Assembly: GCA_018304505.1 (NCBI GenBank)
Contig: JAGVWA010000021.1
Location: 1 to 6,621, forward strand
Reading direction: 5' to 3'
Source of the DNA: Nanobdellati archaeon
GTDB lineage: Archaea; B1Sed10-29; JAGVWA01
DNA: 6,621 nt
The position numbers were made by a program, and so were the translations under genes. Shown here piece after piece: positions 1,531 through 6,621 of the stretch. Below the pieces are notes generated by a model that saw nothing but the letters and a program-made list of their open reading frames with translations, ran no database searches and was not told where the DNA came from. The stretch's first letter is position 1. Every line of letters begins with the position of its first letter.

Positions 1531-4080
1531 ATGAGCGTGAGGGTGAAAGGGGCGCAACTGTTACTTGGGTATTTGATATTATCTCTACTTTTTAGTTTAG
1601 GTTTTGCAGAGCCTGATTGGTTGAGCAGGGAGTGGGGGTATTCAAAGAATATCTCTATTAATAGCTCTGTTAATGTTGTTGATTATCAGGTTAAGCTTGA
1701 GTTTCCTGTGTCTGAGTATGCGGGTAAGATGAATGGTAATGGTTCAGACTTGCGGTTTTTTGACGACAACGGAACTGCGTTGCCGTTCTATGTTTCTGAT
1801 TGGAGGGGTAATGGGACTGCGACTGTGTGGGTTAAGGTTCCTGAATTACTAGTAGGCGTGCCTAAGGTCATCACCATGTATTACGGAAACCCCAACGCTG
1901 AGTCAATGAGTAATGGTGAAGCTACATTTATCTTTTTTGAAAGTTTTGAAAATAAGACATTCAAAACACCTTATAGAACTTCTTCGGTTGAGTTGAATGA
2001 TTCGCCCGATGGGGGCTGGGTGATGATGAGTTATCCTGGACTTAAGAGCGGAGATGGAAAAACTCATTTTGTTGGTGATACAAGGTACAATTTTAGCACG
2101 CTTAACATAAGTTTGTTGAATGTTGAGATAAACGTTAAGATGAAGGATGGTAATTCGAGTTATACGGGGAAGGTAGGAGTTATCGAGCAGGCTGTCGCCG
2201 TTAATGATAAAGACCTTGGAATTAGTCTAAATACAATTAATACTGATACTAAGTATAAAGACGTAAATCTCTTTGGCATTGAGATGACGTGGTCTGCTTT
2301 TTTTGCTCAAAACCTAACACATGAGAGCCTCTTAAATGGTATTGTTAGGACCCCTGATTGGAGGACGATCACCATCACAATCGGTGAGGGCGCTTTTATG
2401 ACAACTTATATGGATGGGCAAAAATTGTTTAGTAACCAGCACTATCAGCTGCCTAAGTGGTTATATCTTGGGGACTTTAAGCACAGCGGGGATCCTATTG
2501 AGAGATCAGATGAGCAAAAAATTGCTAGATACAGGACGTATTATGATCAATTGATGTTGTCGAGGTACATTGCGAAAAAGCCTGCTGTGACCTTTGGGGC
2601 TGAGTTTGAGTATGTGAACTCAAAGCCGGTAATAGTGAACATTTCCTTGCCGGATGAGATTGTGGCTTACAATTCGTATAACATAACTGTTGTGGCTACT
2701 GATGCAGACAATGATGAGTTGAACATTAGTAGTGATCACTGGTTACTGCAGGACATGGGCAGTTACTTTGTTCTTGAACCCACGGTGTTTGATGCGGGGG
2801 ATTATGAGGCGAACATTACCGTGTCTGATGGCATTGATTTTGTAATTGAGACTATAAACTTTACCGTAAAATCAGGCTTAGTGCTGATTCCAGAGGAAGC
2901 GGAGAATGATACCTTGGAGCCATTTGTGCCTGCAGGCATTGATGGTGAGGACCAAGTTACAGCTGACGATGTTGTCCCGGAATCAGAAACTCCGGTAGAG
3001 GAAACGCCAGACTTTACAACTTTAGCGAGCATTACGGCTATTATTAATGGTTCAAGTCTGGAGTTTGATCACAGCATCTTTAAGTGGAATGCATTGGAAA
3101 ACGAGCAGAGGCAAAAAATAGTCTTTGAAGAGGGCTTGCCTCTTGGTTCTTCATTTGATTATCTTACGTCGCCAGCGCTTGAATTATTCGGCACGGAGTA
3201 CCTCATAGACGTGCCTGCTTCGAGGGCGTATGCTGATGGTTCGTTAGCAGAGTCAAAACTTGTATTGCTGCAGGGGGGCATGGTGGCTTTAGCTTCTGGG
3301 TCCGCTGTTCAGTTGCCAGGGGGTATTCAGGTTGTTGGTCTTTCTGGAACTAACATTTCGGATACTGCTTTTGTTAGTTTTTCATTTATTGTGCCACAGG
3401 ATGATGGTTCAAATAAGACGTATGTTACATCGATGCTTGGCTCAAATTCAATGCAGGAGTTTGATGGTGGTAATATCGTAGTGTATGTTGAGTTTGTTGG
3501 TAGGGTAGGGGATGCTGACTACGTTGCACGTTTCGCTATTGGTGGGCCACGGTTGATCTTGGAGTCTGGTAAAACTATTCAGTCTCCGGATAGTGGTTTT
3601 GAGTGGCGCGTTGATAAATTGAACGGCACTGGTAGTGGGTTATTGACGCTTGATGTCGCACGTATCAGGCCGCAGGTAGATGAAATAATTGATGGTCTAG
3701 TGTTGAATGTTTCTGATCAAGGGCCGTGCGAATCACCAAGCTCTTTGGAGTGCTCCAACAGGTTTACAGACGTTGAGAAGGCTGTGGTGTTAAAGATTCT
3801 TTCTGTTATGGCTACTGAGTCGATCAAGAGCATGCCTGAGGCGCAGAAGCAGAGGTGGCGTGAGTCTGCGCAGAAGAAGTCGTTAGGAACGAGAACTCGG
3901 GAGGCCGTTGGTTCACTTGGTACTCGGTCGAGGAATGCTATTGTGCAGACGCCCCAAGCAATCGGAAAGTTGGGCAGCGGCATCGCGTCAAAGGCCGCGG
4001 GTCTGAAGAGCAGCATAGCGGTGCCTAAGTTCACTAAGACTAAGGCCGCGGTGTCGAACCTCGCGTTCTGGAAAAAGTGA
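1531..4080 (+). CDS. Secreted multidomain surface protein: DUF2341, Ig-like and S-layer-like regions, basic C-tail
   Basis: This 849-residue protein begins with a signal peptide (hydrophobic core about residues 8-25, likely cleavage after GFA-26). Residues about 35-125 are a typical DUF2341 domain, with the hallmarks LRFFDDNGTALPFYV and ITMYYGNPNA. Residues about 130-360 look like a concanavalin/LamG-type jelly roll, often found after DUF2341. Residues about 365-448 form an Ig/cadherin-like domain (ATDADNDELNIS, DAGDYEANITVSDG). An acidic Pro/Glu linker spans about 453-497. Residues about 498-725 are beta-rich and recall archaeal S-layer modules (FGTEYLIDV, then KLVLLQGG, then a GG-IQVVG strand); this match is from memory of the family and less certain. 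Two Cys (733, 741) may form a disulfide loop. The last 80 residues are strongly basic (about 17 K/R against two E). Roughly 20 N-x-S/T sequons suggest N-glycosylation. ATG 1531 fits the promoter and signal peptide, but GTG 1537 and 1543 are also possible starts. No transmembrane anchor is visible after the signal peptide. Probable role: structural or adhesive envelope protein. Confidence 0.88.
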   Translation: MSVRVKGAQLLLGYLILSLLFSLGFAEPDWLSREWGYSKNISINSSVNVVDYQVKLEFPVSEYAGKMNGNGSDLRFFDDNGTALPFYVSDWRGNGTATVWVKVPELLVGVPKVITMYYGNPNAESMSNGEATFIFFESFENKTFKTPYRTSSVELNDSPDGGWVMMSYPGLKSGDGKTHFVGDTRYNFSTLNISLLNVEINVKMKDGNSSYTGKVGVIEQAVAVNDKDLGISLNTINTDTKYKDVNLFGIEMTWSAFFAQNLTHESLLNGIVRTPDWRTITITIGEGAFMTTYMDGQKLFSNQHYQLPKWLYLGDFKHSGDPIERSDEQKIARYRTYYDQLMLSRYIAKKPAVTFGAEFEYVNSKPVIVNISLPDEIVAYNSYNITVVATDADNDELNISSDHWLLQDMGSYFVLEPTVFDAGDYEANITVSDGIDFVIETINFTVKSGLVLIPEEAENDTLEPFVPAGIDGEDQVTADDVVPESETPVEETPDFTTLASITAIINGSSLEFDHSIFKWNALENEQRQKIVFEEGLPLGSSFDYLTSPALELFGTEYLIDVPASRAYADGSLAESKLVLLQGGMVALASGSAVQLPGGIQVVGLSGTNISDTAFVSFSFIVPQDDGSNKTYVTSMLGSNSMQEFDGGNIVVYVEFVGRVGDADYVARFAIGGPRLILESGKTIQSPDSGFEWRVDKLNGTGSGLLTLDVARIRPQVDEIIDGLVLNVSDQGPCESPSSLECSNRFTDVEKAVVLKILSVMATESIKSMPEAQKQRWRESAQKKSLGTRTREAVGSLGTRSRNAIVQTPQAIGKLGSGIASKAAGLKSSIAVPKFTKTKAAVSNLAFWKK

Positions 4081-4122: not shown

Positions 4123-5238
4123 TTATCGTCTCAATCCAAGGGTTGTTTTTTCCTGCTTTTTGCGTGCTTGTTGTGCTGCCTCTTCTGCCTTTTTATGCAA
4201 TGCGAGGCGCTGTTTGGCCCTTAGTTTTGCCTCTAATGCACGTGCCCTGCTTGTATTGATGTCTTTTCTTGTTTGTTCATTGTGGCTTGAGGATGATCTG
4301 AGAATGGGGGCTTCGTGGTAACTAACCCCTGGCTCCGCGTAGCCGATGAAGCGTGCTTGTGGTGGCTGCCGTACTGTTTTTTCGATCCGTTGCTCTCGTG
4401 CCCGTGCTATTGCTTGCGGTGTATGGTAAATCCTTAGTAAGCGTGCTTGCCGTGACGCGTTTTCGTGCATTCTTAATGGTGGTGTGGGGACTGGTCGTAG
4501 TCCGAGTGTGATTTGTCTGGCGTGTTCTTGTGCAACTTGTGCGGGGCTTCCTGCTGCTCTAAGCTCCCTATATAGTGTTTGCTGCTTTTTCTTGAATTCG
4601 CGTGCCAGTGCGAGTTCTTGCTTCGCGAGGTGGGTTGTTGTTTCGCCCTGTGTGATTGATTGTTTTCGCAGCTCTTTTAACTTGTCATAAGCCTGCTTCC
4701 TAAGTTCAGTATTGGTGATTTTCATTTGATTTCTCGCAGCTAAAGTATCGGTAAGCACAGTCCTTATTTTTGCTTTTTTGTAAATGAGCTTGCCGGTTTT
4801 TTCCCAGACTTCTCTGTCTAGGGTTTTCCCGATTTTGGTTTGGGAAACTATCCCGCGTCTTAGTTGTTGTTGTTCTTCTTTGGTTTCTAGTCCTGAGTAG
4901 GCTTCTAGGAATGTTACGCGTTCCTCTTCAGTTTTTAGGCTGTTTAAGGTTTTAGATATTTGTGTTGCTTCTCTTTCTCTGTCTGTTAGTGGTTTTACGA
5001 AACTTGTTAGTGTGTGTTTTCGTTCTCCTGGTGGTAGTTGTTGTATGGCTTCTTCTAGTTTTGAGGCGATTGTGTTTCCTAGGTTGAGTTTGATTTGTTG
5101 GATTGTTTTGCCTTCGTGTTTTGATATTTCTGATAGCCTTTTGAGTTCTCCTTCGTATAGGGTTTGTATGTTCATTTGTTGGGCGATTTGTTGTAGTTCT
5201 GGGCGTATTGGTATTGCTGCTCGTTCTTTGGGTGTCAT
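4123..5238 (-). CDS. Basic Gln-rich helical (coiled-coil) protein, unknown function
   Basis: The product is 371 residues and I do not recognise the family. It has no signal peptide or membrane segment, so it is probably cytoplasmic. Residues about 15-130 are mixed-charge helices (for example LKRLSEISKHEGKTIQQIK and LKTEEERVTFLEAYSGLE). Residues about 175-228 are a K/Q/E-rich coiled-coil candidate. Residues about 245-258 are proline-containing (LRPVPTPPLR). Residues about 330-371 form an Ala/Lys/Arg-rich helix ending in basic residues. The strong positive charge would suit binding to nucleic acid or to an acidic partner, but no known motif shows this. Codons 231-278 lie in the 144-bp segment repeated at 6123-6266. 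The ATG at 5238 is 14 bases after the stop of the 154-residue gene and no promoter is visible in the gap, so the two are probably co-transcribed. No Shine-Dalgarno sequence is present. Confidence 0.85.
   Translation of the reverse strand: MTPKERAAIPIRPELQQIAQQMNIQTLYEGELKRLSEISKHEGKTIQQIKLNLGNTIASKLEEAIQQLPPGERKHTLTSFVKPLTDREREATQISKTLNSLKTEEERVTFLEAYSGLETKEEQQQLRRGIVSQTKIGKTLDREVWEKTGKLIYKKAKIRTVLTDTLAARNQMKITNTELRKQAYDKLKELRKQSITQGETTTHLAKQELALAREFKKKQQTLYRELRAAGSPAQVAQEHARQITLGLRPVPTPPLRMHENASRQARLLRIYHTPQAIARAREQRIEKTVRQPPQARFIGYAEPGVSYHEAPILRSSSSHNEQTRKDINTSRARALEAKLRAKQRLALHKKAEEAAQQARKKQEKTTLGLRR
4406..4549. repeat. 144-bp direct repeat, copy A (inside the 371-residue gene)
   Basis: This segment matches 6123-6266 in the same orientation at 142 of 144 positions. 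The differences are C/G at 4417 versus 6134 and C/T at 4450 versus 6167. Both fall at third codon positions of the 371-residue frame and are silent (Pro CCG/CCC and Arg CGG/CGA). The repeat is 48 codons long and encodes residues from SPAQVAQEH to TPQAIA. Identity drops sharply at both edges. Confidence 0.95.
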
Positions 5239-5252
5239 TGAAACAAAGAGTT

Positions 5253-5717
5253 TTAAGTTGATGTCGGTGCGGCCTGTGAAGATTTTAAATTCTGTAGATT
5301 ATGTTGCCGTCGACTTTTGTATCTATCTAGTTCATTTAGCGCTTGTGAAATTGCCCTTCTACGTTTGAATTCAAGTGCTGCTGCACCTGCTATGGCTGCT
5401 GGTAATGCTGGTAAAAATAGAGGTGTTAAAGCACCTAAAAAAATGGTCTCAACAGCTATTGCTTTTCCGCCAAGTGCACCAATTATACTTGCGGCACCTG
5501 TGCGTTTTATTCTGCTGGTGCGTTGGGTAATCATTTTGCCATACCATTGTTCATACTCGTTTTTTATAGCTGCATTCTCTTGTGCTTCCGCCAGAATTTG
5601 GCGAAGTTTGGGGTCATTTGGCGCGGTTCTTAATTCTTTTTCTAGAGTTGTAATATGTTCTTCAAGATTTTTATATGAGCTAATATCGTTGAATACTAGT
5701 TCTAGATTTGCTGCCAT
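5253..5717 (-). CDS. Small protein with coiled-coil N-terminus and central hydrophobic membrane segment
   Basis: The product is 154 residues, of no family I recognise. Residues about 14-58 form a charged helix or coiled coil (LEEHITTLEKELR, LRQILAEAQENAAIKNEYE). Residues about 74-116 are hydrophobic and rich in Ala, Gly, Leu and Pro (FLGALTPLFLPALPAAIAG). This is long enough for one or two membrane passes or a re-entrant hairpin, and basic clusters flank it (RIKR at 69-72, KRRR at 118-121). The C-terminal third is basic and helical. Positive charge on both sides of the core would favour a hairpin with both ends in the cytoplasm; this is inference. ATG 5717 is supported by a TATA box about 25 nt upstream, implying a leaderless transcript. 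The 371-residue gene follows after 14 bases, so this is probably the first gene of a two-gene operon and may tether that basic protein to the membrane. An ORF on the opposite strand over the same bases is Ser/Ala/Ile-biased and was judged a shadow. Confidence 0.82.
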   Translation of the reverse strand: MAANLELVFNDISSYKNLEEHITTLEKELRTAPNDPKLRQILAEAQENAAIKNEYEQWYGKMITQRTSRIKRTGAASIIGALGGKAIAVETIFLGALTPLFLPALPAAIAGAAALEFKRRRAISQALNELDRYKSRRQHNLQNLKSSQAAPTST

Positions 5718-5738
5718 GTATTATAAAAGACGGTTTGG

Positions 5739-5746
5739 TTTTTAAA
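5739..5746 (-). promoter_or_regulatory. TATA box for the 154-residue membrane-protein gene
   Basis: On the minus strand this reads TTTAAAAA, centred about 25 nt before the ATG at 5717. That is the spacing expected for a leaderless archaeal promoter. It lies in the 43-bp A/T-rich gap after the 96-residue gene, so transcription probably restarts here. A second A/T-rich TTTTATAAT is too near the ATG (about 5721-5729) to serve as the TATA box. Confidence 0.6.
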
Positions 5747-5760
5747 TTGATGTTTAAAAA

Positions 5761-6051
5761 TTAGATACTATCTAACTCTGCTTCTAACCTAGCTCGAGTA
5801 AATTCCCTATCTATGCGTATCCCTTCTTCTAGTAGTGCCATTAGTGGGTTTTCTTTTCTGAGTCGTTCTTGCTCGCGCTTTTCTGCCTCGATTTCGGCTT
5901 GTCTTTCTTTGGCCATTTGTTTGTCAAAGTCTGTAAACCACATACTTTTTTTCAACTCTCTTCGGGTTTTGCTTTCGCTTAGATTCTCGAATTGTCGTAG
6001 TATACTTTGCGTAGGGGGTGTATAAAAAGTAGCATGGTCAGGCTTCGGCAA
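5761..6051 (-). CDS. Small charged coiled-coil protein, TTG start, unknown function
   Basis: The product is 96 residues, unrecognised, with no signal or membrane segment. Residues about 10-40 are mixed (TPPTQSILRQFENLSESKTR). Residues about 43-96 are an almost uninterrupted charged helix (DKQMAKERQAEIEAEKREQ and LMALLEEGIRIDREFTRA), a coiled-coil candidate. A TGA lies directly before TTG 6051 in this frame, so no earlier start is possible. The next in-frame Met is residue 37 (5943), which would remove a third of the protein. With the TTG start the gene overlaps the TGA at 6038-6040 of the upstream frame by 14 bases, a common arrangement for coupled genes. A weak TATA-like GTTTACCATA lies about 20-30 nt upstream on the minus strand. 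The start is uncertain; the C-terminal two thirds are firmer. Confidence 0.68.
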   Translation of the reverse strand: MPKPDHATFYTPPTQSILRQFENLSESKTRRELKKSMWFTDFDKQMAKERQAEIEAEKREQERLRKENPLMALLEEGIRIDREFTRARLEAELDSI

Positions 6052-6621
6052 TCAACGATTGATTGTGGTATGGTAAACTTTCGTGGCCGCAGCGCGCTTT
6101 TTCCGTGGTGATTCTTTGTCGGGCTATTGCTTGGGGTGTATGGTAAATCCTTAGTAAGCGTGCTTGTCGTGACGCGTTTTCGTGCATTCTTAATGGTGGT
6201 GTGGGGACTGGTCGTAGTCCGAGTGTGATTTGTCTGGCGTGTTCTTGTGCAACTTGTGCGGGGCTTAGCGTGCTTTGGTGGTGCTAGTGGTGTGGGTGGT
6301 GTTTGTTGTGGGGGAACAGTCGATGGCCGTCTTTGGGGGGTAAGTGTGTGGGTTTGGGTTGGTCGTGCTTGTTGCGCGGGTCTTTTTTGTTGTTTTAGTG
6401 CTCGTCTTTCCTCTTTGATTTTTCGTCTGGCGTTAAGTTGTTTCAGGTTTTCCAGTGCTTGTTCTGCGTTGTTTTTTTGTCTTAATACTTCGTTGACTTG
6501 CTCGAGGTATGTGGCGCGTTGTGTTTCTAGTTTGCGTTTTTTCAAGCCTGCGATTACTTGTTCTCTTACGAGGTCTGTTGTGGTGCGTTGCCTCAGCAGG
6601 CTGATTTTTGGCGTGGGTTTG
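5979..6621 (-). CDS. Partial basic coiled-coil / proline-rich protein with a frame break; paralogue of the 371-residue gene in its middle
   Basis: The frame is open from base 6620 with no stop, so the gene begins right of the window; TTG 6545 is probably an internal codon. The visible part starts with a basic helical region (6620 to about 6381; LVREQVIAGLKKRK, YLEQVNEVLRQKNNAEQALE), a coiled-coil candidate. A Pro/Thr/Gln linker follows (about 6380-6269; TVPPQQTPPTPLAPP). After that the DNA becomes the 144-bp copy of the 371-residue gene, but this frame reads it one base out of phase. The product from about 6268 to the stop at 5979 (Thr/His/Arg-rich, running into the next gene) is therefore probably not natural. 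A +1 shift within about 6283-6267 would continue into the homologous frame, which ends at TGA 6038-6040. The N-terminal part looks genuine. The annotated end depends on whether the break is real, programmed or an assembly error. Family not recognised. Confidence 0.55.
   Translation of the reverse strand, partial: KPTPKISLLRQRTTTDLVREQVIAGLKKRKLETQRATYLEQVNEVLRQKNNAEQALENLKQLNARRKIKEERRALKQQKRPAQQARPTQTHTLTPQRRPSTVPPQQTPPTPLAPPKHAKPRTSCTRTRQTNHTRTTTSPHTTIKNARKRVTTSTLTKDLPYTPSNSPTKNHHGKSALRPRKFTIPQSIVDCRSLTMLLFIHPLRKVYYDNSRI
6038..6283 (-). pseudogene. Frame-displaced segment homologous to residues 231-278 of the 371-residue protein
   Basis: This minus-strand frame opens after a TAG at 6284-6286 and closes at TGA 6038-6040. 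It reads SPAQVAQEHARQITLGL through YHTPQAIAR, identical to the 371-residue protein over the repeat, then about 25 unlike residues ending in SLIAEA. It has no convincing start of its own; the first Met is in the middle of the repeat. Two of two differences from copy A are silent in this frame, which suggests it was under coding constraint. It is best read as the detached 3' part of the gene entering from the right edge, needing a one-base frame change at the repeat boundary. The tail may hold weak similarity to the other copy (RQRITTEK against REQRIEK). Confidence 0.5.
6123..6266. repeat. 144-bp direct repeat, copy B (in the frame-broken gene)
   Basis: This is the second copy of the segment at 4406-4549, at an offset of 1717 bases in the same orientation, with 142 of 144 positions identical. 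Its right edge (6266/6267) coincides with the window in which the upstream ORF and the homologous frame part by one base. No target-site duplication, terminal inverted repeat or transposase is seen near either copy, so homologous or illegitimate recombination between related genes is more likely than transposition. Confidence 0.95.

Follow-up and report, generated by a model that had tools for sequence, protein, structure and literature searches.

Recent recombination between diverged tandem paralogues as the probable source of a near-identical 144-bp block in an archaeal orphan gene array

The window, that is, the whole stretch of DNA analysed, is a complete contig of 6621 bp (C17) from a 917-kb genome in 21 contigs, which is 93% complete and carries an archaeal SSU rRNA gene on contig C15. 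The first part of the window contains two genes on the plus strand: positions 2-1441 encode the C-terminal portion of a protein in which BNR/sialidase-like motifs (SxDxGxxW) recur, which is truncated at the contig start and gives a weak NCBIfam glycosylhydrolase match, and positions 1531-4080 encode a protein of 849 aa with a DUF2341 domain, an N-terminal signal-like segment and a basic C-terminus, which is probably a surface protein. Contig C15 also shows a second, short 3' SSU rRNA-like match at 21162-21250, 0.8 kb downstream of the 16S gene, an internal repeat (GFEKLGNKMD...) at 11606-11769 in a 203-aa protein with a seemingly acylphosphatase-like N-terminus, and a GTPase gene with five relatives (42-49% identity) in MAGs labelled Thermococcus, Diapherotrites and Woesearchaeota.

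The right end of the window is identical over 94 bp to the start of C15, and a reading frame is continuous across the join. Three other contig pairs of this genome overlap by exactly 99 bp (all contig ends were read except the right end of C21); end overlaps are thus a signature of the assembly and, judged from the shared sequence and the open frame, C17 and C15 very likely adjoin. When joined, C17 and the start of C15 contain three paralogous units of a helical/coiled-coil family in tandem, all on the minus strand, with the following features (coordinates are those of the window unless C15 is named):

C15:2761-1658, minus strand: paralogue 1, without the first ~350 residues present in paralogue 2
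C15:1440-1, then C17:6527-5979, minus strand: paralogue 2, joined ORF of 662 aa
5979..6620, minus strand: 3' part of paralogue 2, the remainder being on C15:1-1440, minus strand
5253..5717, minus strand: N-terminal ORF of paralogue 3, 154 aa, with a hydrophobic stretch
4123..5238, minus strand: main ORF of paralogue 3, 371 aa, predicted to be all-helical
5761..5943, minus strand: small gene before paralogue 3, 60 aa from the ATG at 5943
5998..6014, minus strand: 17-bp promoter/operator-like element CTACGCAAAGTATACTA, upstream of the unit
4406..4549, minus strand: shared block, copy in paralogue 3, SPAQVAQEHARQITLGLRPVPTPPLRMHENASRQARLLRIYHTPQAIA
6123..6266, minus strand: paralogue 2 copy of the shared block, shifted to the +1 frame with respect to the upstream ORF; its own frame is open from 6283 to 6041
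4328..4360, minus strand: 33 bp around the codons for QARFIGYAEPG, matched exactly in paralogue 1 (C15:1818-1850)
6528..6621, no strand assigned: 94-bp contig-end overlap, identical to C15:1-94

A small gene similar to the one before paralogue 3 precedes paralogue 2 (C15 1691-1485), and both are alike at their C-terminal end. The element CTACGCAAAGTATACTA occurs exactly twice in the genome, at 5998-6014 (minus) and at C15:1739-1755, each time preceding the small gene of a unit, and no further site was found in the genome with three mismatches allowed. Since the small genes before paralogues 2 and 3 are both preceded by this element, the repeated unit is probably composed of a promoter element, a small gene and a large gene. 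Three more AGTATAC sites are clustered upstream of paralogue 1 (C15:2830-2870), and the array may have a regulator of its own. Each unit would originally have consisted of a small gene and a large gene with an N-terminal hydrophobic segment, probably a membrane-hairpin, and long helices.

Identity between paralogues 1 and 2 is 73-74% over the compared part and reaches about 90% in the best 149 residues, and paralogues 2 and 3 show about 30% protein identity along the N-terminal ~400 residues. The two parts of paralogue 3 correspond to a single ORF in paralogue 2, whose N-terminus is homologous with the separate N-terminal ORF of paralogue 3. Paralogue 3 does not contain the ~150-residue segment and the Pro-rich linker which are found before the block in paralogues 1 and 2, and the block is located at the equivalent C-terminal position in all three aligned paralogues. 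The initial annotation proposed a gene family exchanging modules between otherwise different genes: the family is supported, as three tandem paralogues, but module exchange is not supported in the form proposed, since homology between the genes extends over most of their length and the block has the equivalent position in each, with no copies elsewhere in the genome or in 40 relatives.

The near-identical duplication of 144 bp reported there is real and was recovered by a repeat finder and BLASTN: 4406-4549 and 6123-6266 match at 142 of 144 positions (mismatches 4417 and 4450), and in the longer pair, 4403-4549 and 6120-6266, at 144 of 147 (mismatches 4405, 4417 and 4450). An exact run of 99 bases (4451-4549) is shared by both copies, and chance is excluded because the second copy (6123-6266) gives a BLAST E value of 3.6e-68. 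As reported, neither difference inside the block alters the protein in the 371-residue frame, both being at third codon positions. The duplication is not read alike in both genes, however, since the upstream ORF at the second copy is in another frame. Likewise, the flanks differ on all four sides, as described, but they are not unrelated, because the two genes are diverged paralogues. A search for the block found three locations in the whole genome, all in paralogues, and none in the 40 relatives searched; the viral contigs scanned with the block gave no match, and the repeat search listed no inverted repeats at the block edges. The third copy, more diverged, is in paralogue 1 (C15 1988-2113; 96% over 82 bp) and shows a short internal duplication; its protein is identical over 27 codons, with two to three silent differences. 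Within the core shared by the three copies all differences are silent and protein identity is 100%.

None of the three large genes is intact, each being truncated or frameshifted, so the array looks like one under birth-and-death evolution that is decaying. In paralogue 2, the break between the upstream ORF and the block lies no more than about 27 bp from the block edge, and near it the linker is no longer alignable to that of paralogue 1. In paralogue 3, the two ORFs show a -1 frame difference in an overlap at 5256-5298. Assembly of mixed strains could account for both frame breaks.

The array genes could not be placed convincingly in any Pfam or NCBIfam family, and PHROGs gave a single weak match, to a family of unknown function. 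A two-row profile of paralogues 2 and 3 found only their own genome among 394 archaeal genomes, own included, and no relative was detected in a pattern scan of 85k genomes of a bacterial and archaeal collection or in viral contigs scanned with the long protein; pattern scans reach close relatives only, and distant ones are possible beyond the archaeal set searched with the profile. The protein family is an orphan within the databases and genomes searched, while the exchange process discussed below is already known. A single-sequence AlphaFold model of the 371-aa ORF is all helical and most confident within helices 142-229 and 319-370, and the block corresponds to residues ~230-277, a low-confidence linker between two long helices. 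With a pLDDT of 62 and a pTM of 0.28, the model is too weak for a fold search. The block may be a short linear segment, probably flexible, that connects two helices and is maintained at the protein level. The most likely guess for the protein, because of its hydrophobic stretch, long helices and basic tail, is a scaffold or adaptor anchored in the membrane and bearing a conserved linear motif. The block was also considered as an RNA element and rejected, since its folding z-scores (+0.89 and +1.50) show no excess structure and Rfam gave no match.

Silent sites carry the interpretation of the block. Outside it, paralogues 2 and 3 show 30% amino acid identity, a saturated dS of 1.99 and differences at 19 of 29 fourfold sites; inside it (49 codons), amino acid identity is 100%, dS is 0.11 and only four of 27 fourfold sites differ (Fisher p = 1.4e-4, on a small number of sites). 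The synonymous distance between paralogues 2 and 3 in the block is no greater than that of the younger pair, paralogues 1 and 2, outside it (dS 0.285; fourfold 18/80, p = 0.58). With a dN of 0.056 outside the block (dN/dS about 0.2), paralogues 1 and 2 evolved under purifying selection; together with the lack of non-silent core differences in any copy, this implies that the block segment matters at the protein level. The block copies lie at equivalent positions of homologous genes, and silent divergence of the tract is far under that of the flanking homologous sequence. Because silent sites are conserved in the block and saturated outside, protein-level selection alone is insufficient and recent exchange is indicated, in agreement with the gene conversion put forward in the initial annotation. 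We consider recent recombination between paralogues 2 and 3 in the tandem array the explanation of the block, with a probability of roughly 0.78. A recent homologous recombination event, by gene conversion or unequal crossing-over, would have left a ~147-bp piece of the C-terminal region almost alike in both genes, and conversion is the mechanism we infer. Transfer from paralogue 3 to paralogue 2 is possible, given how close the single frame break of copy 2 lies to the block edge, which makes paralogue 2 the likelier recipient of a tract that matched poorly at one end; a separate later indel may instead have produced this break.

The block could also have stayed alike with no exchange, through strong purifying selection that acts on the protein segment and perhaps on the nucleotides as well. 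The wholly silent differences of the three-copy core fit this explanation, but the conservation extends to the fourfold sites, the block has neither RNA structure nor an Rfam family, and the copy of paralogue 2 is out of frame with its upstream ORF, so that selection without exchange is improbable.

Slightly less probable still is an assembly artefact, with a single block entered at two places, or with the block serving as a false bridge between contigs from different strains. The assembly probably derives from a metagenome, the contig stops 355 bp beyond the second copy, and the exact run between the copies equals the 99-bp overlap of the three other contig pairs, which places the block at the resolution limit of the assembler. 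Against this, the copies can be told apart by their mismatches (4417 and 4450) and by their four flanks, which all differ, and a clearly different third copy is present on C15. Within a single contig, re-pairing of direct repeats requires that the intervening segment be excised, and the linear order is therefore the natural solution. Chimeric joining of two loci is unlikely, because a single contig carries both copies and each of the four flanks is distinct.

The frame breaks might also be programmed, with a T TTA AAA heptamer (-1) and CCC C at the block edge (+1) linking the parts of the proteins. The heptamer, at 5289-5283 (minus), is in the right frame within the ORF overlap of paralogue 3; it coincides with F-K-I codons, which are also FKI in the intact frame of paralogue 2, and the stretch downstream folds worse than shuffles (z +1.43), with no stimulatory structure predicted. 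If true, the shared C-terminal block would be joined to proteins conditionally in an archaeal orphan family, but decay is the simpler reading and programmed frameshifting is very unlikely. Least probable is a mobile or exchangeable cassette moving between unrelated genes, for although high identity stops sharply at the edges and the reading frame is broken at the upstream junction in paralogue 2, the only three genomic occurrences are in paralogues at equivalent positions, with none in the 40 relatives or viral contigs searched and no inverted repeats listed at the edges.

Recombination between paralogues 2 and 3 would document a short, recent exchange tract with a frame-breaking edge in a tandem, lineage-restricted family of a small-genome archaeon, and illustrates how such arrays can rearrange and decay; it is otherwise an ordinary event of genome evolution in an uncharacterised family. 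By analogy, the array is like birth-and-death coiled-coil arrays with segmental exchange, which share its tandem helical paralogues, truncated members and mosaic segments, but it is archaeal, has no homology to any known array and gives no evidence of surface display or selection for diversity. Among prokaryotic paralogues, genes of important pathways have been described as evolving in concert repeatedly and over long periods (PMC6053082). Unlike those genes, the present case shows one short tract, in an array that is disrupted and restricted to a lineage; like them, it shows paralogues of the same genome that are locally far more alike than their overall divergence allows, silent sites included.
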